Origin: Pedobacter frigiditerrae
Lineage (GTDB): Bacteria > Bacteroidota > Bacteroidia > Sphingobacteriales > Sphingobacteriaceae
Direction of reading: 5' to 3'
Assembly: GCF_032678705.1 (NCBI RefSeq)
Contig: NZ_JAVTSS010000001.1
Coordinates: 1,798,001-1,862,000, forward strand
DNA length: 64,000 nt
The position numbers and the translations under genes were made by a program. Below are positions 2,578 to 62,115 of this stretch, piece after piece (position 1 is the stretch's first letter; each line of letters opens with the position of its first letter). The notes below the pieces were generated by a model. That model was not told the DNA's origin, searched no databases, and saw nothing but the letters and a program-made list of their open reading frames with translations.

Positions 2578-4743
2578 CTACCCTTGATACTTCACCAAAT
2601 ACTCCACTCCTTTTTGTATCGTTACTTCGTACAAACCTTTTGAGATTTCTTTCACTTCTGTCCCGCTTACAATGGGTTTAATAGTGCTTTTAAATCTCAA
2701 TTTCCCAACACCATCTGCTGCTTTAACTTTTATTTCTTTCTTACTAACAGAAACAGCAATTTCTCCATTGTTGGTTGGAACCTTGCCTTCCATCCATTCT
2801 AAACCACCCAAATTTGGTTCTACAATATAAGTTTGATAAGCTGCTGAAGTTGGTTTAACTCCCAAATAATATTTACCTAATAAATAAATCGGACTAGCGC
2901 CCCAAGCATGGCATAAACTTTTACCAAATGGTCTACCATACATTGCTAAATGTTCTGTGTCTTTCTTTGCAGGATTATATTCTTCCCAAAATGAGGTTGC
3001 ACCTAGTTTTAACATTCCACCCCAATAATTTTTCATTTCTTTTAAAACATATGGTTGTTCACCCATTGCACAAAGGGCTTCAAGTTCATAAAAACGCATA
3101 TAAGGAGTTGTAATTTTTGCAACTTTATCATTCAACAACACATTCTTTTTTACTTCTAATTTTTGTGCTGGTGTAAAATAATCGAAGAAGATGCCGAACA
3201 TATTAGCATAACGAGTTACATTATCGGTCTGCTTTCCATTAATACGGCTATGAACCAAAGCTTGTTTAGTTGGGTTCCAGTACAAGGCAAATATTTTGGC
3301 CTTTAAAGCTGCTGCCTGTTTAGAATAGATAGCTGCACTTGCATTATCATTAGCCAATTTTGCACACAAAGCCATTGTTTCTAAACTTCTGCAATACAAT
3401 AACTGCTCAAAACTAACTTCTCCTTCTTTACTTAATTTATCTGCCCAATCGATAAAAATCCAATCTCCAGGCATCCATTCTAATAAACCATTTTTGTTTT
3501 TACGACCATCAATGTAAGTCATTAAGGTTTTCATCCTTGGATAAATATCTTCTACAAATTTCTTATCTCCAGAATATTGATAATAATCATAAATACCTAA
3601 AAACCAATAAAATGAATAATCCATAATGGTATTAATGTGAGCTGTAACAGGGTCCTTTCCACGCTGTGCCCACAAGGTTCTTTTAACTGTTGATGCATCA
3701 AAAAACGAATAATAATTCATTAAATAACTTTGGTAAGCATCACCACTCCAAACCCATCTGTCACGTTTAATTCCATCTATAAAAAATTCTCTGGTGTTAA
3801 GCTGGAAAGTGTATTTAGATACGTCATAAATCTTATTCAATTCAGCATCAGAGCTTTTAAAACTTCCACGTTCTGCCACAGGCGAATATTCATAAAGCAT
3901 GGAAACCGAATCAAGTGATACAGAACCTTCTGATTGAACATTTACATATCTAAATGCCTTAGAAAGTATCATTATTGAATCAGTCTTTTTCGATAAATCA
4001 AGTTCCAATAAATCTAATGTTTCGCATTTATCAACTGATAAAGCTTCTTCTTTCGATTCACCATAATAGATGTTTAATTTGCCTTTTCCTTTTAATCCAT
4101 GAACTTTAATAAAACCGAAAGTTTCTTTGCCAAAATCTGAAACAAAGCCTTTGTTTACTTTATCAGTTTTAACTGCAAACATTGGAGTTGTTGGCAGCTT
4201 AAATTTTGAAGGTGGTGTTAATGGGTCAGTTAAATTCCAAGTTCCTGCATTAACGAAGGTTGTTCCAGATTTATCTGAAGTTTTTCCGCTCGCATCAATC
4301 CATTCTTTATCTTCAAAAGTGGTTAACCAAGTCTCATCAGAAACCACAGTTTTTCCTTGTACAAAAATGGCTGGTACTTGAGCTGTGCTATAAACTTTTA
4401 AGCTTAATTTATGCTTACCTGCAGGGATGGTAATCGTTTTTGGAAAACCAGTTATCGCCTGTCCATCAATTTTAACATTATAAGTTCCCTCTACATAAAG
4501 TTTAACTTCTTCGGCCGTTGCCAAATTAAATTCCTTATGAAAATCTACTAAAACGAAGTGACTATCCATTTTCCAGAACACTGGGAAGAATGAACCTCTT
4601 TCTGTTCTTCGGTTTTGCATTACATTGCTCATGTAAATATCAAAATCTCCTGGATACCATATCCAACTCGCTTTTTGAGCGAAAATTGGAAGGGTTAAAA
4701 AACTTAAAATTACAAGAAGGGTTAATTTTTTAAAATTTTTCAT
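2578..4743 (-). CDS. alpha-L-rhamnosidase-like glycoside hydrolase, GH78
   Basis: A secreted 721-residue enzyme with a signal peptide ending near PIFAQ (residues 19-23). Residues about 25-290 form beta-sandwich domains. The (alpha/alpha)6 barrel starts near residue 300 and has the GH78-type motif DGIKRDRWVWSGD (323-335). The second catalytic-acid region is GATSFWEEYN (581-590). A C-terminal beta-sandwich (about 640-721) ends the protein. It is shorter than classical GH78 enzymes (about 900 residues) because the Fn3 and Bac_rhamnosid_N modules are reduced. GH78 removes alpha-L-rhamnose, and periplasmic action on pectic oligosaccharides is expected. The minus-strand neighbour upstream is an SSS transporter. 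The catalytic roles are assigned by family resemblance. Confidence 0.85.
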   Translation of the reverse strand: MKNFKKLTLLVILSFLTLPIFAQKASWIWYPGDFDIYMSNVMQNRRTERGSFFPVFWKMDSHFVLVDFHKEFNLATAEEVKLYVEGTYNVKIDGQAITGFPKTITIPAGKHKLSLKVYSTAQVPAIFVQGKTVVSDETWLTTFEDKEWIDASGKTSDKSGTTFVNAGTWNLTDPLTPPSKFKLPTTPMFAVKTDKVNKGFVSDFGKETFGFIKVHGLKGKGKLNIYYGESKEEALSVDKCETLDLLELDLSKKTDSIMILSKAFRYVNVQSEGSVSLDSVSMLYEYSPVAERGSFKSSDAELNKIYDVSKYTFQLNTREFFIDGIKRDRWVWSGDAYQSYLMNYYSFFDASTVKRTLWAQRGKDPVTAHINTIMDYSFYWFLGIYDYYQYSGDKKFVEDIYPRMKTLMTYIDGRKNKNGLLEWMPGDWIFIDWADKLSKEGEVSFEQLLYCRSLETMALCAKLANDNASAAIYSKQAAALKAKIFALYWNPTKQALVHSRINGKQTDNVTRYANMFGIFFDYFTPAQKLEVKKNVLLNDKVAKITTPYMRFYELEALCAMGEQPYVLKEMKNYWGGMLKLGATSFWEEYNPAKKDTEHLAMYGRPFGKSLCHAWGASPIYLLGKYYLGVKPTSAAYQTYIVEPNLGGLEWMEGKVPTNNGEIAVSVSKKEIKVKAADGVGKLRFKSTIKPIVSGTEVKEISKGLYEVTIQKGVEYLVKYQG

Positions 4744-4936: not shown

Positions 4937-6526
4937 TTAATGTCCGTTAAAGAAAATGTAAAGTAATATCATAATGATGGTTAATGCGCCAAAAGAAATC
5001 CAAACTCTACGAGTTGGTTTTTCAATATTGGCTTGGTGTTCTTCATTTATGGTATATACCGATGGTGATTTATCCGCTAGTGAAATAATTATAGATAGGA
5101 ATGCTAGTAGTGCGAAAATCAGGAAAGATAAAACCATATAATGTGGCCAAAAATCATACTTAGATGAAGGTAAAACCCATAAATAACAAACACCAATTCC
5201 TAAGCTGATGATAGAACCAATTGAAAGTGTAAAATTGACTGCTTTTTTTGTTGTTCTTTTCCAAAATACAGTTGATAAAAACACTACTGATAGTGGTGGA
5301 GCGATAAAACCAAGCACTGCTTGAAATACATCAAATAACTTAAGTCCTTTGATATTATCTATGGCTAAGGCTACAAAAATGGCAAAAAGGCAACCTGCAA
5401 TAACCGTTAATCTGCCCACTTTAATAATTTCTTTTGTAGTTGCTTTTGGATTGATTTTTTTCACATAAACATCCATTGTAAAAACCGTACTTAAAGAATT
5501 TAGGCAAGAGCCGATTGTACCTACCAAAACGGCAATAAGCACTACGATAACCAATCCGTTCATTCCAGGAGGAAATAAATTGGTTACCATCGTCATGTAA
5601 GCCATATCTGGGTTGGCTAAACCTGGATACAAAACATAACACAATATGCCTGTTATTATAAAAAGTGGTAATGATAATATTTTAAGCCATCCAATAAAAC
5701 TAACGCCTAATTGTCCCTGTTCTAGGTTTTTTGCACCCAAAACAGATTGAACCATCGATTGGTCGGTACAGAAAAAGGCTACAGCAGAGACTGGATAACC
5801 CAACAAAATTGCATACCATGGATATTGTGGGTCGCTAGCAGGTTGTGCTAAATTCCAAAAATGTTTAGGAGTTTTTTCATATAGCGCTGCTATTCCTCCT
5901 ACTTTTTCTAAACCTAAATAAGTCAACGCTAATGAGACGCAAATCAACAATATCATTTGGAAAACGTTTACTTTGGCAATAGCCTTTAATCCGCCAAAAA
6001 ACGCAAACAAGCCTGCAAAAGCTACTAAAACAGTAACTGATTGCCACATCGGAATGCCTAAAATTTGTCTAACTAAAACCCCGCCTGCAAATAAACCTAA
6101 TGACAACCAAGAAATTAAAATTTTTACTAATGCGTACCAAGCCAAGATGTTTTGGGTAGAATCTCCATATCTGTTTCCCATAAACTCGGGCATTGTACTC
6201 ACTTTTGCAGCTAAATATTTTGGTGCAAATACAATGGCTAAGAGGAATAGGAAAATAAACGCATACCATTCGAAGTTTACGGCAACAATACCTGTAGCAT
6301 AGCCGATACTTGCAAATGCAACTAACATAGACGGACCGACATTTGTGCCCCACATGTTAAAACCAATGCTACTCCAATTCAAGGACTTATTGGCTAGGAA
6401 TAGGCTTTCATCAGCTTTTTTGCCTTTTGAAAAGCTGGCTCGGTACCCGATAACCACTAAAATAACGAGATATGCAATTACAATGATGTAATCTAATGTC
6501 GTTAAACGTTCTACAATGTTGCCCAT
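4937..6526 (-). CDS. sodium:solute symporter (SSS family)
   Basis: A polytopic inner-membrane carrier of about 529 residues with roughly 13-14 hydrophobic segments. The N-terminal TLDYIIVIAYLVILVVIG segment and the later pattern AVLVGTIGSCLNSLSTVFTMD are typical of Na+/sugar symporters of the SSS family. It most likely imports a monosaccharide or uronate released by the locus enzymes; the substrate cannot be read from sequence. An in-frame ATG 15 codons upstream (6571) would add an unlikely hydrophilic tail, so the ATG at 6526 (MGNIVERL) is preferred. It lies between repeat elements and next to a GH78 and a Gfo/Idh/MocA oxidoreductase. A second, divergent SSS carrier lies at 44969-46525. Confidence 0.88.
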   Translation of the reverse strand: MGNIVERLTTLDYIIVIAYLVILVVIGYRASFSKGKKADESLFLANKSLNWSSIGFNMWGTNVGPSMLVAFASIGYATGIVAVNFEWYAFIFLFLLAIVFAPKYLAAKVSTMPEFMGNRYGDSTQNILAWYALVKILISWLSLGLFAGGVLVRQILGIPMWQSVTVLVAFAGLFAFFGGLKAIAKVNVFQMILLICVSLALTYLGLEKVGGIAALYEKTPKHFWNLAQPASDPQYPWYAILLGYPVSAVAFFCTDQSMVQSVLGAKNLEQGQLGVSFIGWLKILSLPLFIITGILCYVLYPGLANPDMAYMTMVTNLFPPGMNGLVIVVLIAVLVGTIGSCLNSLSTVFTMDVYVKKINPKATTKEIIKVGRLTVIAGCLFAIFVALAIDNIKGLKLFDVFQAVLGFIAPPLSVVFLSTVFWKRTTKKAVNFTLSIGSIISLGIGVCYLWVLPSSKYDFWPHYMVLSFLIFALLAFLSIIISLADKSPSVYTINEEHQANIEKPTRRVWISFGALTIIMILLYIFFNGH

Positions 6527-6591
6527 ATTTGGTTTGTTAATTTTGATTTCCTTGGTTGGTGTCCCCACCAACCAATCATATTATTCTTTTC

Positions 6592-6710: not shown

Positions 6711-7799
6711 TTACAATCCTATCTCCTCTTTCGAAATATTATATTCTTTTAAAATATCATCAATCTTTACTGGCAAACCAGTTTCTAGCGACCTATCCAT
6801 CGCTTGTAGTAAAGCAACTGTACCAATTCCTTCTTTTAAATCTGGATAGGCAACTGTGTTATTGTTGATGCTATCTGCAAAGTATTCTAAGTAATTTTGG
6901 TACTCACCAGCGTGATGACTTTGCCCTTCGAAACGAAAATAATGTTTTAAAGTCGCATCACCCCAAACCACAATTTTTTCTTCCCCAGTTTTATCGGTTA
7001 CTGCATAACGCAATTCATGGTAATCTGCCTGACTAGCACCCTCTGTGCATCTTAAAATGGTACTCATTCCGCTATCGCGATAAGCAGGTTGTGTTGGGCC
7101 AGTATAAGCTCCACTTACACGGGCAATTCTTCCATCTTTTGCCTTAAAAATGAAATGCATGGTATCTTGATTTTTCAATCCAGCCTTGCTGCCATTACTG
7201 CTCAGCATTCCATAACCCATTACTTCTTCGATATTTGGCAAGTACCAACGTATAAAATCCACAGGATGACTTAAACCACCATACAACCATTTAAAAGATT
7301 GTTTTAGCGACCAGCCTTTTTCTAAAAACCATCTGTGGTCTGCGTGATATTGCGCTTCAATAGTTATTAATTCACCTATTAATCCCTCTTCAAAATCTTT
7401 TCTCTGGCGTTTTGCAGGTTCAAAAAAACGTGAACTTTGTCCAACAAAAATTTTCTTTCCAGATTGCTTACTGATTTCTAATAATTCTTTTGCTTTAGCT
7501 AAATCATCAATAAAAGGTTTAGTGCAAATAACGTGTTTACCGTGAAGCAAAGCTTGTTTAATATGTTCGGCGTGTAAATGGTCTGGGGTATAAATAGCAA
7601 TTACATCAATTTCTTTATTATCCAGCATTTGCTGATAATTGGTAGTGTAATGATGAAAATCGAATTCTTTTGCTCTTGCTTTACAGGCTTCTTCACTTAA
7701 ATCGGACATGGTGACAAGCTCATAAGATTTACTAGCTAATGCTGCAGAAATCGTACTTCTTCCTTCTCCTAAACCTAAAATTCCTAGTTTTAATTTCAT
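6711..7799 (-). CDS. Gfo/Idh/MocA family oxidoreductase
   Basis: About 362 residues, normal for the family. The N-terminal Rossmann fold shows GILGLGEG (residues 6-13), and the family's catalytic-lysine motif appears as TKPF (93-96; usually EKP). The C-terminal alpha/beta substrate domain includes WLYGGLSHPVDFIRWYLP. There is no signal peptide, so it is cytoplasmic. Members oxidise or reduce sugars or sugar derivatives with NAD(P). Here it probably processes a sugar released by the locus, near a sugar epimerase-like gene (10646) and an SSS importer. The ATG at 7799 (MKLKLGILG) puts the nucleotide-binding strand at the N-terminus. The upstream in-frame ATG at 7820 lies inside the repeat element and is disfavoured. 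Confidence 0.88.
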   Translation of the reverse strand: MKLKLGILGLGEGRSTISAALASKSYELVTMSDLSEEACKARAKEFDFHHYTTNYQQMLDNKEIDVIAIYTPDHLHAEHIKQALLHGKHVICTKPFIDDLAKAKELLEISKQSGKKIFVGQSSRFFEPAKRQRKDFEEGLIGELITIEAQYHADHRWFLEKGWSLKQSFKWLYGGLSHPVDFIRWYLPNIEEVMGYGMLSSNGSKAGLKNQDTMHFIFKAKDGRIARVSGAYTGPTQPAYRDSGMSTILRCTEGASQADYHELRYAVTDKTGEEKIVVWGDATLKHYFRFEGQSHHAGEYQNYLEYFADSINNNTVAYPDLKEGIGTVALLQAMDRSLETGLPVKIDDILKEYNISKEEIGL

Positions 7800-7814
7800 T
7801 TTAATTACGTTTTT

Positions 7815-7943
7815 CGTCATTGCGAGGGTCGATTTTTCATCGCCCGAAGCAATCTCCTTTGTTTAATGGACTTTACAAACCCTAAACAGTTATTTAATAA
7901 TTTTCCCTCGCTCTAGCAGATAGCTTCGTGCCTCGCAATGACG
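7815..7943. repeat. CGTCATTGCGAG family repeat, full copy
   Basis: Starts CGTCATTGCGAGGG and ends CTCGCAATGACG. Internal arms are AAGCAATCT and AGCAGATAGCTTCG. It overlaps the discarded upstream start of the oxidoreductase at 7820. Confidence 0.8.
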
Positions 7944-7947
7944 CTCT

Positions 7948-10551
7948 TTAATTTATCTTTTTAAAGAAAACCCACACTTCATCCTTTTTTGTTCCTTCAA
8001 TTCCTTCTTGGTATTTTTTCATTAAAGCATTCCATTCATCAACTCTTGGATTATTTAACGTTGTTTTCGGGTTTAACTCATCTAAATTTGCTCCTTTTGG
8101 AATACTGATGACCAACATTAATTGGCGACCGTTTCTGTAAATAACCAATTGCTGAAAATCAGCATTGCAAAAGCCTTTTGACAACTCTGGCCATTTATCA
8201 AATTGCGTAGCATGCTCATCCAAATATTCCTTTTGCATCTTTTCATCTTTCACTAAGTTGGCTGATAAAATGATGTGGTCCCATTCCTTTGCAGGTTCCA
8301 ACAAACAATTCCTTTGCCTTGTAAAATCGTAAAACATATTGTCGTAGAGTTTTACTTCGGCATTGCTGAATTGCTTTTGAAACTTGTTTTGTAATGCTGC
8401 AGGTGTTTGTGTGGCGAAATAAATTACCACACGATTTTCCCATTGGTAAATTGAGGAAGCAGGAATCTGATTTGCCTTTAAAAATGAGTTTAATACTGCT
8501 TCTGTTGGTTTTGTTCCAGATTTAAAAACCAATTCTAATATCACTTGCTGATTTGCTAAATTGATTGGCTGAGCTGATTTATTTACAAATTTACCCTTCA
8601 ATAAATATTGGTATTTCTTTTGTAAACCAGCATTTAACTTGATGCTATCTGCTACCAAATTGCCATTATTTTGCCAAATGTTTCCAGGTCCATTTGCATT
8701 TTGAAGATACTTTTGTGCTGGTGTCCAATTGTCTCTTATGGTGTAATAAGCTGTGCCTTCATCTGTATAAATGTAAAACCAATGACTTGGAATATGGGCA
8801 TAAGGTGCTTTGTAAATGCTATCGATGTAATTCTTTGTGATAAACGATTCAGGTTGGGCTGACAAAGTATAAATCCCAGCAACATCATACATTCTTTTAC
8901 CGTAATGATGGATTTTATTGCCACTGATTACATTATTTCTCATTGCATTAACAGTTGGTGTCCAACCCCAACCTACGCTAATTGCAGAATAGGAAACTTC
9001 ATTAATCTCGTTATTCAATATCTTGATTCCTTTCACATAACCAGCTCCTAATCCAACTGTGCCCCAATCTTCATTGGTTACATTGCTAATCAGGTTGTTT
9101 TCAATTCTATCATTTGTAGAAATCTCTCTTTGGTCTTTCGGATTATAAGGCAAATGTGCCTCCATCGCTTCATCAGAAAAAGTTCCGATTAATATTCCAG
9201 AGCCACCGATATCTTTAAAGAGATTCCCTCTGATTAAATTATTTAGTGTACCTTTTTTATAATCCAATCCTGTTGATGCCAAATGCTCAAATTTGCAAGA
9301 ATCAAAACTCGTGCTTGTTGCATAACTCACTTCAACAGCCGCAGGTGGTCGGCCAACCCAAGCCTGATTTTCTAATTCTTTCTTATCAGGAGTTCCTGCA
9401 ATTTGAAGCTTGTAGGCATCCAACATAAACATTCCTGTTTGTAATGGAACGTGTCCTTGTTTAGCTGGCCTTAACCAAGTAGAATGCTCAAACGAAATAC
9501 CTTTAAACGAAACATTTGCTACAGGATGGTCTATCGTTCCTTCAATTTTAAGCAATGTTTCTAAATGTGGTACAACAACATCTACATTTTGCATCTGCTC
9601 ATTTTTTGCAGCCCAATAGTATATTTTATGATTTCGCAAGTCTTCAAACCATTCGCCTTGCTCATCTAAAAACTGAATAGAATTAGTTAGATAAAAAGCA
9701 GAGTTGCCGTCTTTTGAAATCCAAGGTGCAGGCCAAGGATGCTCAGATTGAATTCTACTTTCTGGTTGCATAAAAGTTAATTCTACAGCGTTTCCAATCA
9801 CCTTTGCCAACTTAATCCTCAGATTTGCAATTGCCCACCATTGATGAATAACCATTTCCATTCCTTCAATGTTTTTTGGATTGAAGTTCTTAGGAATTGG
9901 TATTCTGCAAGTCTGATTTTTGAAATCCCAAGATAAAATCCGGTTCATTATTTCGCCATTTCTATCTCTAGCCCTAGTAGCTTTATTTCCGTTCACCCAA
10001 AGTTGTCTAAACTCTAAAGTTCTGCCAGCTGGCGATGGTGCTTCGGCAACCCAAACGTTCCCAATCGCTTCTTTTGGCAAACCAACAATGGGAGTTGACA
10101 CCTTTCTCCAACCTTTAATTGAAAGCCCGCCACTAAAAATCACTTTAGCATTTTGAGCAGAAATAATTTGCGTCGGACTATCTTTTGTGCCTGAATCTTC
10201 AGGTTTTAGAATAATGGTTTCATCAAGTTTGTAAACTCCATTTTCAATTATAATTCGAATTCCTCCTTTTACAGCAACATCATTTAAACGGCGTAGTTCT
10301 CTTGCTTTACGCAAAGCGGAATGTAGTGTTGCGAAAGGTTTTTCTTTGCTTCCAACATTATTATCTGAACCTTTTAAGGAAACATAAATATCAGCTGCGC
10401 TGGATGTTAAGCAATACATTATAAGAAATAGCGTAGAGATAAAATTTTTGGTTCGTGGAGATACGAACCAAGGATGCCCGCCGTGGTTCGTGTCTCCACG
10501 AACTACTAGATGTTGAATCCTTGTTTTTAAACTGTTTCTAATTTCTTTCAT
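7948..10551 (-). CDS. secreted parallel beta-helix hydrolase (GH141-like) fused to L-rhamnose mutarotase-like domain
   Basis: About 867 residues from the ATG at 10551. The mature N-terminus DIYVSLKGSDNNVG...KPFATLHSAL, followed by the GGxxIKGW and VNGNKATRARDRNG patterns, is typical of right-handed parallel beta-helix carbohydrate enzymes. It resembles the GH141 group, which includes an RG-II alpha-L-fucosidase. Helix turns with N/D-rich coils occupy about residues 60-600. The last 110 residues match the L-rhamnose mutarotase family: the WPEL motif preceded by a His (YLDEHATQFDKWPEL, from about residue 776), then QLVIYRNGRQLMLVI and RVDEWNALMKKY. The preceding 75 residues look like another ferredoxin-like unit. 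The signal region is odd: an n-region (MKEIRNSLKTRIQHL) is separated from the hydrophobic core (ISTLFLIMYCLTSS) by residues encoded by an inserted palindrome. An in-frame TTG at 10629 lies inside a repeat and is disfavoured. GH141 membership is by resemblance only. Confidence 0.8.
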   Translation of the reverse strand: MKEIRNSLKTRIQHLVVRGDTNHGGHPWFVSPRTKNFISTLFLIMYCLTSSAADIYVSLKGSDNNVGSKEKPFATLHSALRKARELRRLNDVAVKGGIRIIIENGVYKLDETIILKPEDSGTKDSPTQIISAQNAKVIFSGGLSIKGWRKVSTPIVGLPKEAIGNVWVAEAPSPAGRTLEFRQLWVNGNKATRARDRNGEIMNRILSWDFKNQTCRIPIPKNFNPKNIEGMEMVIHQWWAIANLRIKLAKVIGNAVELTFMQPESRIQSEHPWPAPWISKDGNSAFYLTNSIQFLDEQGEWFEDLRNHKIYYWAAKNEQMQNVDVVVPHLETLLKIEGTIDHPVANVSFKGISFEHSTWLRPAKQGHVPLQTGMFMLDAYKLQIAGTPDKKELENQAWVGRPPAAVEVSYATSTSFDSCKFEHLASTGLDYKKGTLNNLIRGNLFKDIGGSGILIGTFSDEAMEAHLPYNPKDQREISTNDRIENNLISNVTNEDWGTVGLGAGYVKGIKILNNEINEVSYSAISVGWGWTPTVNAMRNNVISGNKIHHYGKRMYDVAGIYTLSAQPESFITKNYIDSIYKAPYAHIPSHWFYIYTDEGTAYYTIRDNWTPAQKYLQNANGPGNIWQNNGNLVADSIKLNAGLQKKYQYLLKGKFVNKSAQPINLANQQVILELVFKSGTKPTEAVLNSFLKANQIPASSIYQWENRVVIYFATQTPAALQNKFQKQFSNAEVKLYDNMFYDFTRQRNCLLEPAKEWDHIILSANLVKDEKMQKEYLDEHATQFDKWPELSKGFCNADFQQLVIYRNGRQLMLVISIPKGANLDELNPKTTLNNPRVDEWNALMKKYQEGIEGTKKDEVWVFFKKIN
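10450..10504. repeat. 55-bp palindrome inside a coding region
   Basis: Arms GTTCGTGGAGATACGAACCA and TGGTTCGTGTCTCCACGAAC are inverted with one mismatch around a 13-base loop. The element is read in frame on the minus strand (VVRGDTNHGG...) and sits between the charged n-region and the hydrophobic core of the signal peptide of the 7948-10551 gene. Removing about 57 bp would restore an ordinary signal peptide. Confidence 0.8.
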
Positions 10552-10645: not shown

Positions 10646-11542
10646 TTAACTAGGCTGAAATATCTTTTTTAAATAAGCTGTATTTGCACTGAAGTTGTAC
10701 TTTACATTTGTAGGTTGCTTTGCATCACGAGAACGTTCAACAACTAACCAGCCGCACCAACCCATATCATCTAAAGTTTCTTTCACTTTAACCAAATCTA
10801 TCTTAGGGTCGTTTTCTAACCACACACCATCTTCATTTGTAGCGTGTATTTGAATGATATTTTTCCTGCCTAAAATCCTTAGTTCTTGATGTAAATCTCT
10901 TCCATTCTTTATTGCATTAGAAAAATTGAAATAACTTTTGATAGCTTTTGAATCAATTTCATTCAGCAATGCTAACTCACCTTTTGCATCTAATGAAGTT
11001 TCAATACCAATCACAACACCGGCTTTTTTAGCCATTTTGCCAACAATTTTCAATCGTTCTACTATTGGTTGTCGTAACTCTGGATTTTTAACCAAATCGC
11101 CCTGCACGCCTAAAGGCAAAAAGCCAACTTTTACATTCATTGCCTTCATCGTATCCAAGCAATCCTGTATCATTTTCACATAAGTCGGTCGTTTTGCGAA
11201 TGATTGCGCATAAAAACCAGTCATTGCCAAAGCGCAGATTTCTAAATTCAATTCTTTGGCTTTGTCTAAATATTCTTGCCTAATTTTAGGGTCGGCCAAT
11301 TTGTTATCGAAGGTTTCTCTATCACCCAAACCGCCCATATCAATTTCTAAACCATCTGCACCAATTTCTTTTGTCAGTTGCAGTGCGCTCAACTTTTGCC
11401 GTTTTAAAATCATTAAATCAATTACAGCAATCTTATATTTTGATTTTTTTGCTGCCGCAAATAGAAATCCACTAGGCAACACCAGGCTTCCTGTTAGCAA
11501 AGCCAATGAATTGATGAATGTTCTTCTATCCTGCACTTGCAT
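10646..11542 (-). CDS. sugar phosphate isomerase/epimerase-like TIM barrel, exported (Tat-type signal)
   Basis: A 298-residue protein of the xylose-isomerase-like AP-endonuclease-2 superfamily. The N-terminus QDRRTFINSLALLTGSLVLP has a twin-arginine and a moderately hydrophobic core, as in Tat signals of Bacteroidota epimerase-like proteins. Barrel strands include GADGLEIDMGG, VGFLPLGVQ, VVIGIETSLD and IIQIHATNEDG, and it ends with GWCGWLVVERS. The acidic and His residues in these strands are the likely metal ligands. Its exact substrate is unknown; a carbohydrate isomerisation or related lyase step is expected. The start codon lies 1 bp after the stop codon of the upstream esterase gene, which implies translational coupling and one transcript. 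Confidence 0.82.
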   Translation of the reverse strand: MQVQDRRTFINSLALLTGSLVLPSGFLFAAAKKSKYKIAVIDLMILKRQKLSALQLTKEIGADGLEIDMGGLGDRETFDNKLADPKIRQEYLDKAKELNLEICALAMTGFYAQSFAKRPTYVKMIQDCLDTMKAMNVKVGFLPLGVQGDLVKNPELRQPIVERLKIVGKMAKKAGVVIGIETSLDAKGELALLNEIDSKAIKSYFNFSNAIKNGRDLHQELRILGRKNIIQIHATNEDGVWLENDPKIDLVKVKETLDDMGWCGWLVVERSRDAKQPTNVKYNFSANTAYLKKIFQPS

Positions 11543-14667: not shown

Positions 14668-15321
14668 TTACTGTTTAGCTTTTTTCTCTTTCTCAGCCTT
14701 AATCTTTTTAGTGTAATCGCTATACATTGTTCTCCAATTGCGACCATTGTTATTTAAAAATTGCTCTGATTTAGTTTTATAGATTTCGAAAATCGCCGAA
14801 ATCTGTTTCATATTTTTATAGTCAACTGCTTGTTCACGAGCTTGTTTTAAAAATCCTAGAATTTTAGCTTCTTCATCAGCTGTTAAATTTGGAACGATAG
14901 ATTTGTAACCATTCATTGTAAAAGCAACTTTTCCGATGGTGTATTTATCTAAGATTGCTTCCACTTGCTCTGGTGTTAAATCTTTCTTTAAACCATCCAT
15001 TAAAGCTGTATGAACTGTTGTAGGCATTGCGCTATCTGCAATTATTTCCCTGTCCAAATCACTTAGTTTATTTCCAGTAACTGGATTTATCCCTGCTGGA
15101 ACAGTAGAAGCTGGATGTGCATTATGCCAATTTCTAATAGTAGTTAAATGAGTTGCCACAACTTCTTTTACACGAGCTTCTTTTTGAGCATCGCCTAAAT
15201 TTAAGGACGCAACCCATTCAGCAGCTTTTTTACTGTTCTCTTCGTCAGCAGTGGCTGATGTCTGTGCTTTTGCAAATGTGATTGCTAAGGCTAGAAATGT
15301 GAATACAAATATTTTTTTCAT
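14668..15321 (-). CDS. DUF3826 family protein, secreted
   Basis: About 217 residues from the ATG at 15321 (MKKIFVFTFL), with a signal peptide ending near TFAKA. The mature part is mostly alpha-helical and charged. It carries AAEWVASLNLGDAQKEARV and a central LTPEQVEAILDKYTIGKV segment that match the DUF3826 family, which is often found in pectin/rhamnose PULs of Bacteroidota. Its function is unknown. A paralogue (40390-41055) precedes SusC. The repeated 'DLTPEQVEAIL / LTADEEAKIL' helices resemble a periplasmic helical chaperone or sensor more than an enzyme, but that is speculation. The in-frame ATG at 15348 belongs to the adjacent repeat element. Confidence 0.8.
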   Translation of the reverse strand: MKKIFVFTFLALAITFAKAQTSATADEENSKKAAEWVASLNLGDAQKEARVKEVVATHLTTIRNWHNAHPASTVPAGINPVTGNKLSDLDREIIADSAMPTTVHTALMDGLKKDLTPEQVEAILDKYTIGKVAFTMNGYKSIVPNLTADEEAKILGFLKQAREQAVDYKNMKQISAIFEIYKTKSEQFLNNNGRNWRTMYSDYTKKIKAEKEKKAKQ

Positions 15322-15342
15322 AGTTGTTATTTTTAAACTGTT

Positions 15343-15384
15343 CGTCATTGCGAGGATTGATTTTTCATCAACCGAAGCAATCTT
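15343..15384. repeat. partial CGTCATTGCGAG family repeat (left half)
   Basis: CGTCATTGCGAGGATTGA, then CATCAACCGAAGCAATCT. The right half is missing and another repeat family begins about 17 bp further on. Confidence 0.7.
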
Positions 15385-30601: not shown

Positions 30602-32233
30602 TCAAGGTTTAACTTTTCCAATCTCAACCAAACTGTTTAGATAAACTTCGATATTAGCATAACCATTTTTTGAAATTTTAACAGCATCGGTTGCATCTTT
30701 AGGATTTAAACCATTTTTAGTTTCCCAAGCATCTGGCATTCCATCTTTATCAGTATCAATATAAGGAGTTCCTTTGTATTCAGGATAACCACCAACTTGA
30801 GCAATGTCTGAAATGATACCTTTTTTGTAAGAATCGTCTGCTAAACGGCGCTTTACATAGTTTTGCTTTGCAGGTAATTTTCCATCCTCAACGTGTTGTA
30901 TTTTACCTGTTTTAACTTGTTCAACAATCCTTAAATCTACAGGATCTCTCTTAGGTAAAGTAGCTCCGGCATTTGCCAAAACATAAGTATAAGCTTGTTT
31001 CGCATCAACTAAACTCACTTTCGCCATTGGCAAAGGTGTGCTTGTTCTGATTGAGTCTAATAATTTTTGTTTATCACCTTTAGCTTCTGGTTGCACGCCA
31101 CCATCCCAATTGTCCTTGGTAACCCTTGCATTACCTTCAACAATGTTTCCAGTAATGTAAGCTTTGCCAAAAGTTGTTGTATATCTTTTATCACGACCAG
31201 ATTCTGGCTTTAAAATTCTGTATGAAATTGGTTCACCAGCTGGAGTAATTGGCCCAGGTTTGTAATAATTATTGATAAAACTATAAAACGATGCATTATC
31301 CCCACCATCCGCACTACGATTCCACCAATTGAAAACTACGTTATTTACGAAGCCAAAATCGCCATACATGCCAACAGAAGGATTTCTACTGATATTTGAA
31401 GCCCAAAGGTTACGCATAAACGTACTGTTTAGACCACCAATTGTACTACCAAATGCATGGTTATAGGTATCTAAAGCTTCAGAAAATATTGAATTTTGAA
31501 TGGTAACGTTAACGGTTGGTAATTTTTCTGGTTTTGAACCATCTTTTGGGTCGTAAACGTGGCGATAAATTGACATATTTTCATCTAATCCCCAACTTGC
31601 AGAAACATGGTCGATGATGATATTACCTACTGGATTACCGCCAATGGCATCATCTCTACGAGTTACATCAGTTACTCCTCTACGGAAACGCATAAAGCGG
31701 ATAACCACATCATGTGTATTTAGCCAAACAGATTCTCCTGCCACACAAATTCCATCACCCGGTGCACTTTGTCCAGCAATGGTTATGTATGGAGCTCTAA
31801 TGATTAAAGGCGTTTTCAATTTGATGATTCCAGAAACGTTGAAAACAACAATCCTTGCTCCACCTTGCTCACAAGCTTCTCTTAAACTACCAGGGCCAGC
31901 ATCTGCTAAAGTGGTAACTACATAAACTTTTCCACCTCTACCACCAAAAGTATAAGCACCACCACCTTCTGCACCTGGAAATGCCAACAGTTTTGACTGA
32001 GGTAAATCGCTAGGTTTTGCTGCCCAAGGAATATAAGGCTTCCCTAATTTTGCCTCAGCATCAACAATGGGTTTAACTTTAAGAAACTGAAGTTCAGAAA
32101 GTCTTTCGATTTCTTTAAGTAAAGAATCAGCTTTCTTTTCCATCGCCTCTGGTATAACTGGATATTGAGCAAAAGCTAAATTAACAGAGCTGATTATACC
32201 CATCAGCATTGCTGCAGAAAATATTTTACGCAT
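30602..32233 (-). CDS. PL1-type pectate lyase (paralogue A)
   Basis: A 543-residue secreted protein with signal peptide ending at LAFAQ (residue 23). After a helical linker, the PL1-like block FPGAEGGGAYTFGGRGGKVY begins near residue 87. It is followed by LADAGPGSLREACEQGGARI and the beta-helix. The catalytic region includes RRDDAIGG, IIIDHVSASWGLDEN and RFMRFRRG. A C-terminal calcium-type tail (DTDKDGMPDAWETKNGLNP) precedes a short helix. It is expected to cleave polygalacturonate by beta-elimination outside the inner membrane. The gene is 4 bp from its paralogue (32238-33890), with which it shares most motifs, indicating local duplication and co-translation. Confidence 0.88.
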   Translation of the reverse strand: MRKIFSAAMLMGIISSVNLAFAQYPVIPEAMEKKADSLLKEIERLSELQFLKVKPIVDAEAKLGKPYIPWAAKPSDLPQSKLLAFPGAEGGGAYTFGGRGGKVYVVTTLADAGPGSLREACEQGGARIVVFNVSGIIKLKTPLIIRAPYITIAGQSAPGDGICVAGESVWLNTHDVVIRFMRFRRGVTDVTRRDDAIGGNPVGNIIIDHVSASWGLDENMSIYRHVYDPKDGSKPEKLPTVNVTIQNSIFSEALDTYNHAFGSTIGGLNSTFMRNLWASNISRNPSVGMYGDFGFVNNVVFNWWNRSADGGDNASFYSFINNYYKPGPITPAGEPISYRILKPESGRDKRYTTTFGKAYITGNIVEGNARVTKDNWDGGVQPEAKGDKQKLLDSIRTSTPLPMAKVSLVDAKQAYTYVLANAGATLPKRDPVDLRIVEQVKTGKIQHVEDGKLPAKQNYVKRRLADDSYKKGIISDIAQVGGYPEYKGTPYIDTDKDGMPDAWETKNGLNPKDATDAVKISKNGYANIEVYLNSLVEIGKVKP

Positions 32234-32237
32234 CCTA

Positions 32238-33890
32238 TTATGGTTTTACTATACTTACAGGAACTACACTATTTAAGTAAATTTCGATGTTTGAATAACC
32301 ACTTGCAGTAATTTTAGTTGCATCTGAAGCATCTTTTGGATTAAGGCCAGCTTTAGTTTCATAAGCATCTGGCATTCCATCATCATCCGAATCTTTATAA
32401 GGAGTACCTTTGTATTCCGGATAACCACCAACTTGACTAATGTCTGTAATGATACCTTGTTTGTATGAATCTTTTGGCAAACGGCGATGTTCGAAATCTT
32501 TCTCAGGTAATTTCACCCCTTCAATATAATCGATTTTACCAGTTTGAACTTGTTTAATTACACGGGTATCAACCGGGTCTCTTTTTGGCAAATTCGCTCC
32601 AACATTAGTTAGCACATAAGTCTTAGCAGCTAAAGTTGGCAATAGGGTAATTTTTGCCATTGGGAAAGGCTTTTTAACACGCATAGCTGCAAAATAAGGT
32701 TGAGCTTGCTCGTAAGTCATTAAATTTCCTTTTTTATCTTCCACTTGCACACCACCATTCCAATTGTCTTTGGTTACTTTTTCATTACCCTCAATGATGT
32801 TTCCATCTACATAAGCACGGCCAAACACCACATAAGGCAATTTGCTACGTCCAGATTCTGGCTTTAAAATCCTGTAGCTAATTGGGTCTTTTAAATCGGT
32901 TACTGGTCCTGGTTTATAGTAATTGTTAATGATGTTATATAAAGCAGTGTAATCACCACCATCTGTTGACCTATTGTTCCAGTTAAAAATTACGTTATTA
33001 GCAAAATTGAAAATACCATTCCATCCAATGGATGGGTTTCTAGCTCCATTATCAGCCCAAAGGTTACGCATGAACGTACAATTCTCTCCACCTAATGTGC
33101 TACCGAAAGCATGGTTCCATGTATCTAAAGCCTCAGAAAAAATAGAGTTTTGAATAGTAATATTTACTGTAGCTAATTTATCTTCAATTTTACCTGTGCT
33201 ATCGTTATACATATGGCGATACATAGACATATTTTCATCTAAGCCCCAACTTGCGGAAACGTGATCGATCATGATATTACCTACCGGATTACCACCAATG
33301 GCATCATCTCTTCTGCCAACATAAGTTTCGCCTCTTCTAAAGCGCATGAAACGAACTATTACATCATGTGTATTTATCCATACTGATTCCCCAGCAACAC
33401 AAACACCATCGCCTGGCGCCGTTTGACCAGCAATTGTAATATAAGGTGCACGAATAATTAGAGGCGTTTTAATGCGGATGATACCAGCGACATTGAAAAC
33501 AACAATTCTTGCTCCGCCTTGTTCACATGCATCACGCAAAGAACCTGGACCACTATCATTTAAGTTTTTAACAACGATAACCCTACCGCCTCTACCACCA
33601 AAACTATAAGCGCCACCACCTTCTGCACCTGGAAAGGCAATAATTTCTGATTGAGGTAAATCTGTTGGACGACCAGCAAAAGGAATATAAGGCTTTCCTT
33701 GTTTAGCTTCTTTTTCGATAATCACTTTTGCTTTTTCCCATGCAATATCAGATTGCCTAGTTGCTTCCTTCATCATATCTGAAGAGGCTTTCTGAACATC
33801 GGCAGGAATTTTAGGATATTGGGCAAAAGAATAATTTGCTGAGAGCATCAACAAAGCAAAAAACGCTAGGTTTAATAATTTCTTTTTCAT
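32238..33890 (-). CDS. PL1-type pectate lyase (paralogue B)
   Basis: About 550 residues from the ATG at 33890 (MKKKLLNLAF), with signal peptide ending near NYSFAQ. It has the same order as paralogue A: helical linker, FPGAEGGGAYSFGGRGGRVI, NDSGPGSLRDACEQGGARI, VGRRDDAIGGNPVGNIMIDH, SASWGLDENMS, and the C-terminal DSDDDGMPDAYETKAGLNP tail. The two copies have clearly drifted apart (for example linker sequence and KGNLMTYEQAQPY insertion), so the duplication is not recent. Different chain-length or methylation preferences are likely but cannot be shown. In-frame upstream ATGs at 33926 would add a non-signal extension. A -7-like TATTTTTG lies about 110 bp upstream on the minus strand. Confidence 0.88.
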   Translation of the reverse strand: MKKKLLNLAFFALLMLSANYSFAQYPKIPADVQKASSDMMKEATRQSDIAWEKAKVIIEKEAKQGKPYIPFAGRPTDLPQSEIIAFPGAEGGGAYSFGGRGGRVIVVKNLNDSGPGSLRDACEQGGARIVVFNVAGIIRIKTPLIIRAPYITIAGQTAPGDGVCVAGESVWINTHDVIVRFMRFRRGETYVGRRDDAIGGNPVGNIMIDHVSASWGLDENMSMYRHMYNDSTGKIEDKLATVNITIQNSIFSEALDTWNHAFGSTLGGENCTFMRNLWADNGARNPSIGWNGIFNFANNVIFNWNNRSTDGGDYTALYNIINNYYKPGPVTDLKDPISYRILKPESGRSKLPYVVFGRAYVDGNIIEGNEKVTKDNWNGGVQVEDKKGNLMTYEQAQPYFAAMRVKKPFPMAKITLLPTLAAKTYVLTNVGANLPKRDPVDTRVIKQVQTGKIDYIEGVKLPEKDFEHRRLPKDSYKQGIITDISQVGGYPEYKGTPYKDSDDDGMPDAYETKAGLNPKDASDATKITASGYSNIEIYLNSVVPVSIVKP

Positions 33891-34172
33891 TTGTGTTTTG
33901 TTCATTAGAGACCAAAAAGTACGCATTTAATTTAAATTCGTTAATCTTAATTGGTTGTCCAGGTAAATTTATTTTGGTTAGAAAGTATATTATATATCAA
34001 AAATAAGGGGTTCGAGCTACTAATTTATCTATTATATTCTCAAAAGAGTATAACATCTTATCATTAGGCTATTTACCACGTAACAATCTTAATCCATTCT
34101 ATGTTGCAAGATAAACATTAACAAGAATAAAATTCATATATAAATGTAACATTTCCAAATAAAAATAAACAT
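33891..34172 (-). promoter_or_regulatory. spacer with candidate promoter for the downstream PL1/GH series
   Basis: No gene is seen in this AT-rich spacer between a terminator and the PL1 paralogues. On the minus strand, TATTTTTG (bases 33998-34005) matches the TAnnTTTG -7 box. No -33 box is convincing. Because the terminator at 34173-34199 ends the SusCD transcript, a promoter must lie here for the lyase and hydrolase genes further along the minus strand. Confidence 0.4.
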
Positions 34173-34297: not shown

Positions 34298-35254
34298 TTA
34301 TTTCTGCATTTTAACACTTACGTTACAATAAGGTTTTTTATCAATATCAGAGGTAAAGAAGAAGAAATATAACATCCCATATTTTCCTTCTGGTGTTTGA
34401 AAAAACACTGCACTTGTTGATGTAATACCAGTTGTTGTAGCGTTTAGGTTAATCGTTCTCGCTTTAGCCAATGTTTCTATTGTTGACCCAGAAAACGCAC
34501 TATTTGTAAATATTGTACCCTGACTAGCAACTGGCGCACTAAACTTTGTTAATCTTTTTGTCCAAGTACTTACATCATAAATAGGGAATGTAGTAGCCGG
34601 AGCACTGGTATTATAGATATTATGCACATATCCTGTAATAATTCCCTGACCATCTCTTACTGCGGTTCTGTAAATCCCAAAATCTATTTTTGCGGCATTG
34701 GTAGCCCCATTAGTATAACTATAAGTTGTACCATCACTTAGTGAAAAGAATGACGGTAAAACTTTAGCAACAGTATCTGGCATATAAATGTCTCTATTTG
34801 CAAGAATTACATAACTTGGATTTTGTTCAACTGTTACTTTTTTGTATCCATCTCCCATATAAACTCCTTTTTCATTTAATGGATAAACACGGAAGCTTTG
34901 TAATCCATCACGCATTTGAGTTACTGGAATTTTGTAAACGAATGAAAAGCTTCTTCTTTTAGTGCCGTCTGTAATCGGTGTAGTGATCCGCGATGGAGTA
35001 GCTGTGCCTGCAGATGTTTCAATTACATAAGAATACATATCTTCCTTATCAGAAGTAATTGTAAAATCAATCCAGACTTCTTCTTTATCATTAATTAATT
35101 TATAATCAGTAACACAACGCGGATCGCTACTGTTGTATGTCACCGAAACATTGGTGAACATATTAAATATGTTTGGAGCCTCCTTGCTACAAGACGTAAA
35201 GAGCAAAACGCTCAATGCTAGAAGGCATAACTTTTGAATATTTTTAGTTTTCAT
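34298..35254 (-). CDS. surface lipoprotein of the SusCD system, putative glycan-binding protein
   Basis: A 318-residue lipoprotein (lipobox LFTSC, then SKEAPN). It is rich in beta-strand and Thr/Ser and shows no catalytic motif. Residues about 25-140 look like an Ig-like beta-sandwich, and residues about 150-315 form a second beta-rich domain ending in FQTPEGKYGMLYFFFF. Its position as the last gene after SusC and SusD is that of SusE/F-type or surface-glycan-binding proteins, which help capture the polysaccharide. The family was not recognised by name. The gene is followed by the terminator at 34173-34199. Confidence 0.7.
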   Translation of the reverse strand: MKTKNIQKLCLLALSVLLFTSCSKEAPNIFNMFTNVSVTYNSSDPRCVTDYKLINDKEEVWIDFTITSDKEDMYSYVIETSAGTATPSRITTPITDGTKRRSFSFVYKIPVTQMRDGLQSFRVYPLNEKGVYMGDGYKKVTVEQNPSYVILANRDIYMPDTVAKVLPSFFSLSDGTTYSYTNGATNAAKIDFGIYRTAVRDGQGIITGYVHNIYNTSAPATTFPIYDVSTWTKRLTKFSAPVASQGTIFTNSAFSGSTIETLAKARTINLNATTTGITSTSAVFFQTPEGKYGMLYFFFFTSDIDKKPYCNVSVKMQK

Positions 35255-40389: not shown

Positions 40390-41055
40390 TTAATTCACTT
40401 TAGCTGCCTTTATTCTCTTTTGCCATTCTTCGCCCTCCTTTTTTAAATCATATCCAGCTGCAGACAAATAGTTGTTTATCCTGCCTTTATATTTACCAAA
40501 CCAAGCATGCTTTTTATCAGATGATTCTGCATCCATTGCTTTTTCCCTTGCTTCGATTAACCAAACCAAAATTTGTTTTTTTTGATCTTCTGTAAGGGTT
40601 AATATCTGTTCTTGGTAAGCTCTGTAAGTAAGTGGCACAACTCCATAAGTCATTCCGTCTTTAACTTGCTCAACTTGTTTGTCGTTTAAATGAGCTGATA
40701 AATTCTTTAAATATTTTTTATGGAGTTTGGTTAGGGAAGCATCAACAGCTCTATTTTCTTTAGCTAATACTGTATCTCTTTCAGCTTTATCCTCTTTGTA
40801 TTTTTCTTTAATGGTTTTGATATTCAAATCCCTTGCGGCATAAATATCATTCAAATTACTGTACTGATCTCTAATTACATTAGTAACTTTTTCTACTTTA
40901 GCCTTATCATCAATGCCCAAAACCGCAGTAATTTTTGCAGCACGTTCAGTAATTACTTTTACATAGGCAGCCTTATCTTCCTCAGCAGTTTTTTGTGCAA
41001 ACGTATTATTAACGTTTATCAAAACAAAAAATAATATCCCCAATAACCTCATCAT
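40390..41055 (-). CDS. DUF3826 family protein, secreted (paralogue 2)
   Basis: About 221 residues from the ATG at 41055, with signal peptide ending near NTFAQ. It is helical and charged, with LTKLHKKYLKNLSAHLNDKQVEQVKDGM and a central TYRAYQEQILTLTEDQKKQIL pattern, parallel to LTPEQ/LTADEE helices in the paralogue at 14668. The function is unknown. It sits between the isomerase-like gene and SusC. A TTG-started frame at 41062-41064 is possible, but tandem ATGs follow at once. The isomerase stop codon is 5 bp upstream of the ATG, so translation is probably coupled. Confidence 0.78.
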   Translation of the reverse strand: MMRLLGILFFVLINVNNTFAQKTAEEDKAAYVKVITERAAKITAVLGIDDKAKVEKVTNVIRDQYSNLNDIYAARDLNIKTIKEKYKEDKAERDTVLAKENRAVDASLTKLHKKYLKNLSAHLNDKQVEQVKDGMTYGVVPLTYRAYQEQILTLTEDQKKQILVWLIEAREKAMDAESSDKKHAWFGKYKGRINNYLSAAGYDLKKEGEEWQKRIKAAKVN

Positions 41056-41060
41056 GTTAA

Positions 41061-42692
41061 TCAATTTCTTTTTTTAATCAAATTCACATCACCGCAAAAG
41101 TGTACGGTTATTCCTAATTCATCCATCGCGGCAGCTTTAACCCTACAAGCTTCATGAGCACTTGCTTCGTAATTTGCATAAACTACTTGAATATGGTTTG
41201 CCTTATGTCTAGCCATCATCTGGTCGCGACTAACGCCTTTTAAAACAGCATGCATAATTGGCCATTCTGATGTTGTTTCTTTCCAGCGTCTGTTTGTTTC
41301 TTCAATTGGTAAAGCTACAACTTCTCCAACACCTAAATCGCAATGTAAGGCGTTATCACAAACATATACCCTGCTCCAAACTATAAAACCTGGTTTGCTT
41401 ATTCCTTTAAGTGTTCCGCCTCCCAGTCTGAAATACATTGCTGGCTGTCTATCGCTACTTGCACCTTTATAACCATCTATAAAATGAGCTGCTGGTGCTG
41501 CGCCAGAAATTAAGAAAAGCCAAACAAATTCATTGATGCCTTCTACTTTGTAATTTTCTCCCCAACGGATATCATGCAAGGTATTTTCACCTGTCATTCC
41601 CAATTCTTTCCATAACTTATAGGTTACCAAAGAATCTAATCCTGCACATTCATCAACTTCATTGAAATGAGGTAAAGCCTGTTTAGCATATAATTCCTTT
41701 CCTTCTAGTGAGAAAACTGGTGGCCTATCTTCGTTGTTTAACAAACCTTCTACTAAATCGCTGGCTACAGTTAAATCTTTTAATCCTTGTTGATATTGAA
41801 TTCCTATGGTATCGCAACTAAATTCATCCGCTATGCGAACCGCTGCGATGTACATTTTGCACTGCTCTAAAGTTTGAGCTTGGGTTAACTCAGTTTGTTC
41901 ATTGGTTCCCCAATTAAACTTCATCCCTTTTTTTAACAACCAATTTAAAACGGCCTCAGCTTCCTTTTCAGTTACTTGAAGCATTGCTGCATAAAGTGCC
42001 GATTGACTTAATCTCTCTTTAAAGAATCCAGTTTTATGCAAAAGTTCATCAGGGATAATGGCATTGTACATTCCCATGCAGCCTTCATCAAAAACACCCA
42101 TGATGGCTTTTCTGTTCTTTAAGGAACGAGCAAAGGTCCTACCCTTTTTTTCATCGGCTAAAGGAATTTTACTGAGCGCAAAGCTTTTAACGTGACTTTG
42201 ATCGTAACTGATTTTACCAGTAGACAACCATTCTTGTAAACCATCGGTAAAAAAGTCATCATCAAAGTTCTCACTCCATAATGTGCTATAATTAATTCCG
42301 GCTTTAGTTAAGCAGCCATTTAAATTTAGCATACCTACTAACCCTGGCCACTGACCGCTCCAATTTGCAACTGTTAATATTGGACCTTTATGCGTGGTAA
42401 GTCCGGCTAGTACATGATGTGAATATTGCCAAACACTTTCGGCTACAATCAAGGGCTGATTTGGGTCGATATCATGGAACACATCCATCCCCATTCTTTG
42501 AGAATCTATGAAGCCATGCTTTTTTGTAGAATTGTAAGGGTGAGCACGTTTAACAGTCCAGCCAAATTTCTCAATTGCGGTTGTTAAATTACCTTCCATT
42601 TGAAGTTGAGCAGCCCAGCAATTTTGATTTGCCGAGAGCCTTAAATCTCCACTAGAAACTAATACGATTTGCTTTAGTACACCCTGTTTCAT
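41061..42692 (-). CDS. L-fucose/L-arabinose isomerase-fold protein
   Basis: A 543-residue cytoplasmic protein without signal peptide. It resembles the fucose/arabinose isomerase superfamily. The first domain has VANWSGQWPGLVGMLNLNGC and a MGVFDEGCMGMYNAIIPDEL block comparable to the FucI segment around its catalytic acid. A middle domain has the ADEFSCDTIGIQYQQGL pattern. A C-terminal beta-barrel-like domain has FRLGGGTLKGISKPGFIVWSRVY. It likely interconverts a deoxy-aldose and ketose or acts on a related sugar, but substrate and metal ligands are not certain. It is the first gene of the SusCD transcript and is divergent from an AraC regulator, with 228 bp between them. Confidence 0.75.
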   Translation of the reverse strand: MKQGVLKQIVLVSSGDLRLSANQNCWAAQLQMEGNLTTAIEKFGWTVKRAHPYNSTKKHGFIDSQRMGMDVFHDIDPNQPLIVAESVWQYSHHVLAGLTTHKGPILTVANWSGQWPGLVGMLNLNGCLTKAGINYSTLWSENFDDDFFTDGLQEWLSTGKISYDQSHVKSFALSKIPLADEKKGRTFARSLKNRKAIMGVFDEGCMGMYNAIIPDELLHKTGFFKERLSQSALYAAMLQVTEKEAEAVLNWLLKKGMKFNWGTNEQTELTQAQTLEQCKMYIAAVRIADEFSCDTIGIQYQQGLKDLTVASDLVEGLLNNEDRPPVFSLEGKELYAKQALPHFNEVDECAGLDSLVTYKLWKELGMTGENTLHDIRWGENYKVEGINEFVWLFLISGAAPAAHFIDGYKGASSDRQPAMYFRLGGGTLKGISKPGFIVWSRVYVCDNALHCDLGVGEVVALPIEETNRRWKETTSEWPIMHAVLKGVSRDQMMARHKANHIQVVYANYEASAHEACRVKAAAMDELGITVHFCGDVNLIKKRN

Positions 42693-61062: not shown

Positions 61063-61072
61063 ATTATACAGA

Positions 61073-61921: not shown

Positions 61922-61928
61922 AAATTGT

Positions 61929-61983
61929 CGTCATTGCGAGGGTCGATTTTTCATCGCCCAAAGCAATCTGCTGATGTGGTGGG
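61929..61983. repeat. partial CGTCATTGCGAG family repeat (left half)
   Basis: CGTCATTGCGAGGGTCGATT, then the arm AAGCAATCTGCTGATGTGGT. The right half is missing. It is the only member of the family found in the deoxy-sugar oxidation operon. Confidence 0.7.
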
Positions 61984-62115
61984 TTCTAATAAATATTTTT
62001 TGTAATTTAACAACCTAATCTGAGATGCAATGATAATTTTTGACAAATTCTATTAAACGTTGTTATATAGTTTTCAAAGTATCAAATTTCAAAATCGTAA
62101 ATCTAATATTAAATC

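Follow-up and report, generated by a model that had tools for sequence, protein, structure and literature searches.

In the 64,000-nucleotide stretch of the Pedobacter frigiditerrae genome analyzed in this study (contig NZ_JAVTSS010000001.1, positions 1,798,001 to 1,862,000; hereafter the window), the gene at positions 7948–10551 on the reverse strand encodes a protein of 867 amino acid residues. Based on its open reading frame (ORF), its Pfam matches and its match to BT1002, this protein is a GH141 enzyme that begins with an N-terminus of the export type and ends with a two-unit module of the RhaM type. The fusion of GH141 with the RhaM-type module was confirmed, and the module is widely conserved across several Bacteroidota families, in which it is at times a separate export-type protein. 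We propose, with a probability of about 0.5, that the module is a periplasmic mutarotase, built as a pseudo-dimer in one chain, that equilibrates the anomers of an L-fucose-ended product for an SSF sodium:solute symporter, by analogy with NanM. GH141 and RhaM are known families found here in a new combination, which is probably exported and lies beside a gene pair of the import type, and the finding is larger than that of the original prediction, which had been made from the letters of the window. No description of this GH141-RhaM fusion was found among the open-licence papers searched.

The GH141 part of the protein

The ORF is uninterrupted and encodes 867 residues when translated from the ATG at position 10551 or 893 residues from an upstream TTG. 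Residues 1–51 (positions 10399–10551; reverse strand here and below unless noted otherwise) read as a putative export signal with an unusually long n-region and a hydrophobic stretch ahead of the predicted mature start ADIYVS, consistent with the exported N-terminus that had been predicted originally. An inverted repeat at positions 10451–10503, whose arms are 20 bases long with 1 mismatch, lies in frame within the region coding for this signal and makes its n-region longer. The start of the close relative at locus L074 is shorter and lacks the repeat, of which partial copies were also found at six other places of the genome, some on both strands.

Residues 51–650 (positions 8602–10401) matched BT1002 of Bacteroides thetaiotaomicron (5mqp) with an E-value of 9.3e-205. 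The match reached residue 622 of the 624 residues of BT1002, and BT1002 therefore lacks the C-terminal module. The GH141_M insertion domain (PF21231; E 1.2e-63) spans residues 164–313 (positions 9613–10062). An AlphaFold2 model of residues 52–867, with a predicted local distance difference test score (pLDDT) of 87.1 and a predicted template modeling score (pTM) of 0.78, was superimposed on 5mqp with a Z score of 58.3 and a root-mean-square deviation of 1.6 Å, at 51% identity over 587 residues. Together with the PF21231 match, this bears out the GH141-type beta-helix that had been proposed for the N-terminal part.

According to a 2023 review, BT1002 frees 2-O-methyl-xylosyl-alpha-1,3-L-fucose from chain A of the plant pectin rhamnogalacturonan II (RG-II), and its D523 and D564 are critical (PMC10154630). 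With the YDVAG and TDEG motifs as guides and a 5-residue offset in chain numbering, these residues appear to correspond to D556 and D597 of the window protein. Both positions were Asp in all 40 rows of the full-length alignment A3, which contained the window protein and 39 of 68 full-length rows. The window protein is similar to BT1002 in its beta-helix fold, Asp pair and RG-II-type gene neighborhood, but BT1002 ends where the C-terminal module of the window protein starts. Judging from BT1002 and the gene neighborhood, the GH141 part probably cuts a fucose-containing piece from RG-II chain A.

The C-terminal module

A short linker at positions 8554–8601, delimited by the BT1002 match and the alignment of relatives, connects the GH141 part to the module. 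Unit 1, a predicted ferredoxin-like partner unit, comprises residues 667–744 (positions 8320–8553), and unit 2, which is of the RhaM type, comprises residues 752–867 (positions 7951–8298). A hidden Markov model search placed PF05336 at residues 768–863 with an E-value of 8.3e-11 and a score of 42.5 bits, above the curated cut-off of 23.4, as expected from the RhaM pattern noticed originally. Chance can be excluded as the source of this match because of the E-values and the conservation of 109 distinct module sequences among 118 loci. The original prediction was right about the RhaM-type end and about a second ferredoxin-like unit ahead of it, which forms a separate unit in the AlphaFold2 model. 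The boundary of that unit, which had been put at the preceding 75 residues, had to be moved, however, as the conserved module begins at about residue 667 (base 8553). The unit conserved in the alignments of relatives is about 201 residues long (667–867), not 100.

The AlphaFold2 model of the module, computed with 81 sequences, had a pLDDT of 94.2 and a pTM of 0.89 and contains two predicted ferredoxin-like units in one chain. In an hhalign comparison with a profile built from 24 free proteins of the RhaM family, unit 2 matched with an E-value of 5.8e-22 and a probability of 99.4. After re-ranking with VIA-align, the best match of unit 2 in PDB was the L-fucose mutarotase (FucM) 7byu (Z 11.8, 103 residues, 2.8 Å), and further matches were the RhaM structures 1x8d, 6hhn and 2qlw (Z 9.8, 9.1 and 9.0, respectively). 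The whole module matched several two-unit proteins of the alpha-beta-barrel type with Z scores of 8–10 after re-ranking. For instance, PenE (9kdp) was matched over residues 1–201 (Z 10.4) and HmoB (4jou) over residues 2–201 (Z 8.2). Both resemble the module in having two ferredoxin-like units per chain but differ from it in function, as judged by title, and share only 9 and 7% identity with it, respectively. A reading of unit 1 as a recognizable RhaM duplicate was also considered, and hhalign did not support it (probability 16.5, E 0.0015).

Tyr18, His22 and Trp76 of Escherichia coli RhaM, which we take to be residues of the sugar site and part of the Tyr-x3-His, WPE and Trp pattern of the family, align with Y776, H780 and W840 of unit 2. 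The His/Tyr/Trp site, whose completeness had been left to be checked, thus appears to be complete by this alignment. The three positions were invariant in two overlapping module alignments, in 34 of 34 rows of alignment A1 (34 of 39 rows from 38 loci and the window) and in 81 of 81 rows of the other. The WPE motif is formed by W787, P788 and E789, and its Glu was Glu in 76 of the 81 rows. Moreover, the module contains four invariant Trp residues, W704, W787, W840 and W860.

Two Cys residues were also invariant in both alignments, C749, which is just before unit 2 and between the two units, and C795 in unit 2. In the alignment with E. coli RhaM, Cys is absent from the C795 position of the free RhaM proteins, and C749 is not part of the RhaM domain. 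It is therefore plausible that C749 and C795 form a disulfide. The module is similar to RhaM/FucM (PF05336; 1x8d, 2qlw, 6hhn and 7byu) in the predicted fold of unit 2 and the positions of Tyr, His and Trp, but differs in its export-type N-terminus, the additional ferredoxin-like unit, the two invariant Cys and a longer loop between His and WPE.

Distribution of the module and its association with Gfo/Idh and SSF genes

Five PF05336 matches were found in the genome of the window, four of which are in frames of 108–148 residues and the fifth in the gene at 7948–10551. Among 151 genomes of the family to which the window belongs, the module (E < 1e-40) was found in 38 of the 39 with GH141 and in none of the 112 without it. 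Relatives found in named genomes numbered 346, of which 80 were kept; the latter represent Pedobacter, Mucilaginibacter, Chitinophagaceae, Flavobacterium, Spirosoma, Fibrella, Hymenobacter and others. These 80 and the 38 above make up the 118 loci, in which some genomes are present twice and 109 sequences are distinct by their last 180 residues. In 395 genomes of the phylum, GH141_M was found at E < 1e-60 in 18. Fifteen of these 18 have it in frames of 833–906 residues, and, of 132 PF05336 matches, the only ones in frames longer than 322 residues are in the same 15 genomes. The remaining three genomes are G382 and G534 of family f11 and G311 of family f9.

GH141_M was found in 23 of 151 genomes of family f11, and its 21 strongest matches (E < 1e-60) were in frames of 579–675 residues. 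The remainder consisted of 3 frames of 584–663 residues and 7 weaker matches (E 4e-42 to 4e-39; frames of 461–1782 residues). The f11 loci read in this study were 20 of the 21 strongest, with the weaker matches and the frames of 584–663 residues outside this set. No RhaM-like ORF was found in the stretches read around these 20 loci and the f9 locus L175.

The module was fused to GH141 in 94 of the 118 loci, was encoded by a separate gene that immediately follows or overlaps that of GH141 in 15, and was elsewhere in 9. Of the 109 distinct sequences, 86 were fused and 23 separate. On the module tree, which was built from alignments A1 and A2 pooled (107 distinct rows) and thinned to 69, the fused and separate states needed 8 changes, 2 of which are forced by well-supported branches. 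All 24 separate modules possess a hydrophobic stretch near their start, and 13 of them a loose lipobox pattern, which suggests that they may be exported as well. In Niabella defluvii (L117:4049-6597), the GH141 gene is apparently in several broken frames and the module end is intact; this locus was scored as fused.

Similar to their arrangement in the window, where a Gfo/Idh/MocA oxidoreductase with no apparent export signal (positions 6711–7820) and an SSF symporter (positions 4937–6571) are encoded downstream of the fused gene, the genes for these two proteins were beside the module in 108 of the 113 loci with at least 3.2 kb of sequence. Counted by distinct sequences, both were downstream of the module and on the same strand in 99 of 104. 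Eight module genes that do not immediately follow GH141 (L061, L063, L064, L065, L121, L127, L134 and L151) still precede Gfo/Idh and SSF genes. None of the 22 GH141 loci without the module had both. Gfo/Idh was found in 0 and SSF in 6 of 21 of these control loci, which were from families f11 (20) and f9 (1), and the remaining one, L276 of genome G055, which is the sole GH141 of the window's own family without the module, had neither within 18 kb.

Proposed function and alternatives

NanM, a sialic acid mutarotase of the periplasm, operates upstream of NanT, which transports the sugar (PMC10017367; PMC8141875). The module is similar to NanM in its proposed role, which is to equilibrate a freshly released sugar ahead of a transporter, but would act on a different sugar and is unrelated to it in fold, as NanM is a six-bladed beta-propeller (PMC10017367). 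In the proposed pathway, GH141 would release an L-fucose-ended product from RG-II chain A outside the cytoplasm. Unit 2 would hold the single active site, with unit 1 standing in for the other subunit of what is usually a homodimer, and the C749-C795 disulfide would perhaps lock the two units. The site of action of the module would be the periplasm or the cell surface, its substrate would be either the reducing end of the product or L-fucose freed later, and the equilibration of anomers would supply the form carried by the downstream SSF symporter. It may also relieve product inhibition of GH141. Once imported, the sugar would be oxidized by the Gfo/Idh enzyme. Conversion before uptake is favored over a purely local role because the module is conserved, is sometimes a separate export-type protein and is linked to Gfo/Idh and SSF.

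L-fucose is a likelier substrate than L-rhamnose, given that TIGR02625, the equivalog model of L-rhamnose mutarotase, did not match the fused protein at E-values up to 0.01, that BT1002 acts at L-fucose and that the best fold match is FucM. The label "rhamnose" used originally stands as a family name but not as the likely sugar, for which the L-fucose end of the product of RG-II chain A is the better candidate. The free copy of RhaM at positions 62116–62445 of the forward strand, which had also been predicted, is a PF05336 protein (E 6.2e-32). It scored 37.7 bits with TIGR02625, below the cut-off of 99.6, and is probably a cytoplasmic L-fucose mutarotase of the FucM type. Its neighbors within positions 60298–63267 of the same strand encode a short-chain dehydrogenase/reductase (SDR), a FAH-type hydrolase and an amidohydrolase_2 protein. 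These genes appear to fit the non-phosphorylating L-fucose route, in which FucM takes part (PMC11199699). L-fucose use in the locus is therefore plausible, and "rhamnose" is again best read as the name of the family.

Several observations weigh against a mutarotase. Neither RhaM nor FucM was among the 50 matches listed by Foldseek itself, in whose own ranking of the listed matches a decarboxylase and a putative monooxygenase were on top, followed by many chains of eIF4E and flavoenzymes, and mutarotases led only after the VIA-align re-ranking. When the module profile was run against PDB sequences by hmmsearch, nothing was returned at E-values up to 1, and a sequence search of PDB with the C-terminal 201 residues gave four aminotransferases (E about 0.75). 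Unit 1 is not recognizable as RhaM by sequence: the hhalign values are those given above, its probability against unit 2 was 0.3, and the region at positions 8331–8553 had no Pfam match. The loop from His to WPE exceeds that of E. coli RhaM by 3 residues (2 extra residues occur in some free relatives), and the C-terminus is shorter. The BT1002-type GH141 of family f11 manages without a fused module, for which its frames are too short. In addition, mutarotation also occurs spontaneously. As regards the gene association, 5 of the 113 module loci (L048, L051, L054, L126 and L139) lack Gfo/Idh and SSF; because L048 and L054 share a genus code with G055, the partner genes may have been lost ahead of the module in that genus. 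Moreover, the contrast between loci with and without the module partly reflects lineage, since 21 control loci come from families f11 and f9 and L276 is the one control within the family.

The main alternative, that the mutarotase fold was reused as a non-catalytic carbohydrate-binding module that keeps the sugar, whether released or still substrate, close to GH141 and the membrane, is unlikely in our view. Binding modules are typically fused to glycoside hydrolases, and the four invariant Trp and the changed loop relative to E. coli RhaM would suit such a role. Against it stand the invariance of the Tyr-x3-His pair in 81 of 81 rows and the linkage to Gfo/Idh and SSF, which holds even for modules encoded away from GH141. 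In a quite unlikely explanation, the RhaM-like site would catalyze another isomerization or a lyase reaction on an unusual RG-II sugar and feed the Gfo/Idh enzyme. The tightness of the Gfo/Idh link, the His-WPE loop unlike that of E. coli RhaM and the presence, by title, of a monooxygenase, a decarboxylase and a heme protein among the similar two-unit structures point in this direction, but the Tyr, His and Trp positions match RhaM and the best single-domain matches of unit 2 are mutarotases.

The role of a mutarotase could also be confined to lessening the product inhibition of GH141 through removal of the anomer formed first, in keeping with the 109 of the 118 loci in which the module is fused to GH141 or immediately next to it. 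A precedent comes from sialidases, which are inhibited by alpha-Neu5Ac and whose inhibition NanM may lessen (PMC8141875). This restricted role is very unlikely, however, given the separate modules that precede Gfo/Idh and SSF away from GH141, the short GH141 frames of family f11 and a catalytic mechanism of GH141 described as undetermined in the 2023 review (PMC10154630). Finally, an artefact of annotation or assembly, with neighboring genes fused by chance, has a negligible probability. Nothing beyond the broken frames of L117 favors it, and the conserved fusion in 94 of the 118 loci from several Bacteroidota families rules it out.

Models of glycan uptake usually ignore the anomers of sugars, and a conserved export-type module of the mutarotase family beside a symporter allows a direct test of whether uptake after enzymatic release is limited by anomer conversion. 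If the module is the mutarotase proposed here, it would add a missing function to the degradation of RG-II, which is among the most complex glycan pathways, and would offer mechanistic work an enzyme with one chain and one site whose usual form is a dimer.

Single-domain relatives

Single-domain RhaM proteins with lipoprotein-like N-termini were also observed (L170:4525-4965, L171:5879-6322, L172:7626-8057 and L232:231-644). An SSF gene precedes those of L170, L171 and L172, whose gene orders look alike. Pfam also identified an aldo-keto reductase near those of L170 and L172, and in L170 a member of the enolase superfamily as well. In the domain tree, 20 module sequences formed one clade (98/98) apart from 23 free mutarotases of Bacteroidota (100/99), and the single-domain lipoproteins were placed between these and E. 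coli RhaM, which has a very long branch. A single clade of all exported forms was not rejected (approximately unbiased test, p 0.44) on this tree of long branches, that of E. coli RhaM above all. It is quite possible, and we suggest it tentatively, that the cytoplasmic RhaM/FucM fold became exported mutarotases in Bacteroidota in at least two forms, the GH141-tied pseudo-dimer and the single-domain lipoproteins behind SSF. Both would serve an unrecognized extracytoplasmic step of anomer conversion between polysaccharide cleavage and symport, similar to that of NanM with its unrelated fold.

The surrounding locus

The neighborhood of the fused gene encodes an apiosidase, a BT_1020-like propeller, two rhamnosidase-like proteins, GH95, GH2, GH28, a SusD-like protein and a TonB-dependent receptor, from which we infer an RG-II locus. 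The alpha-L-rhamnosidase-like protein identified by Pfam at positions 2578–4743 has a relative beside 14 of the 21 GH141 loci without the module. Upstream of the fused gene, positions 10646–11542 encode a xylose-isomerase-like triosephosphate isomerase (TIM) barrel with an N-terminus resembling that of twin-arginine translocation (Tat) substrates, which is a common upstream neighbor in the loci compared. Three ORFs between the DUF6298 and SusD-like proteins, at positions 30602–32233, 32238–33926 and 34298–35254 (543, 562 and 318 residues, respectively), had no Pfam match. Finally, the same locus contains two DUF3826 proteins, at positions 14668–15348 and 40390–41064.

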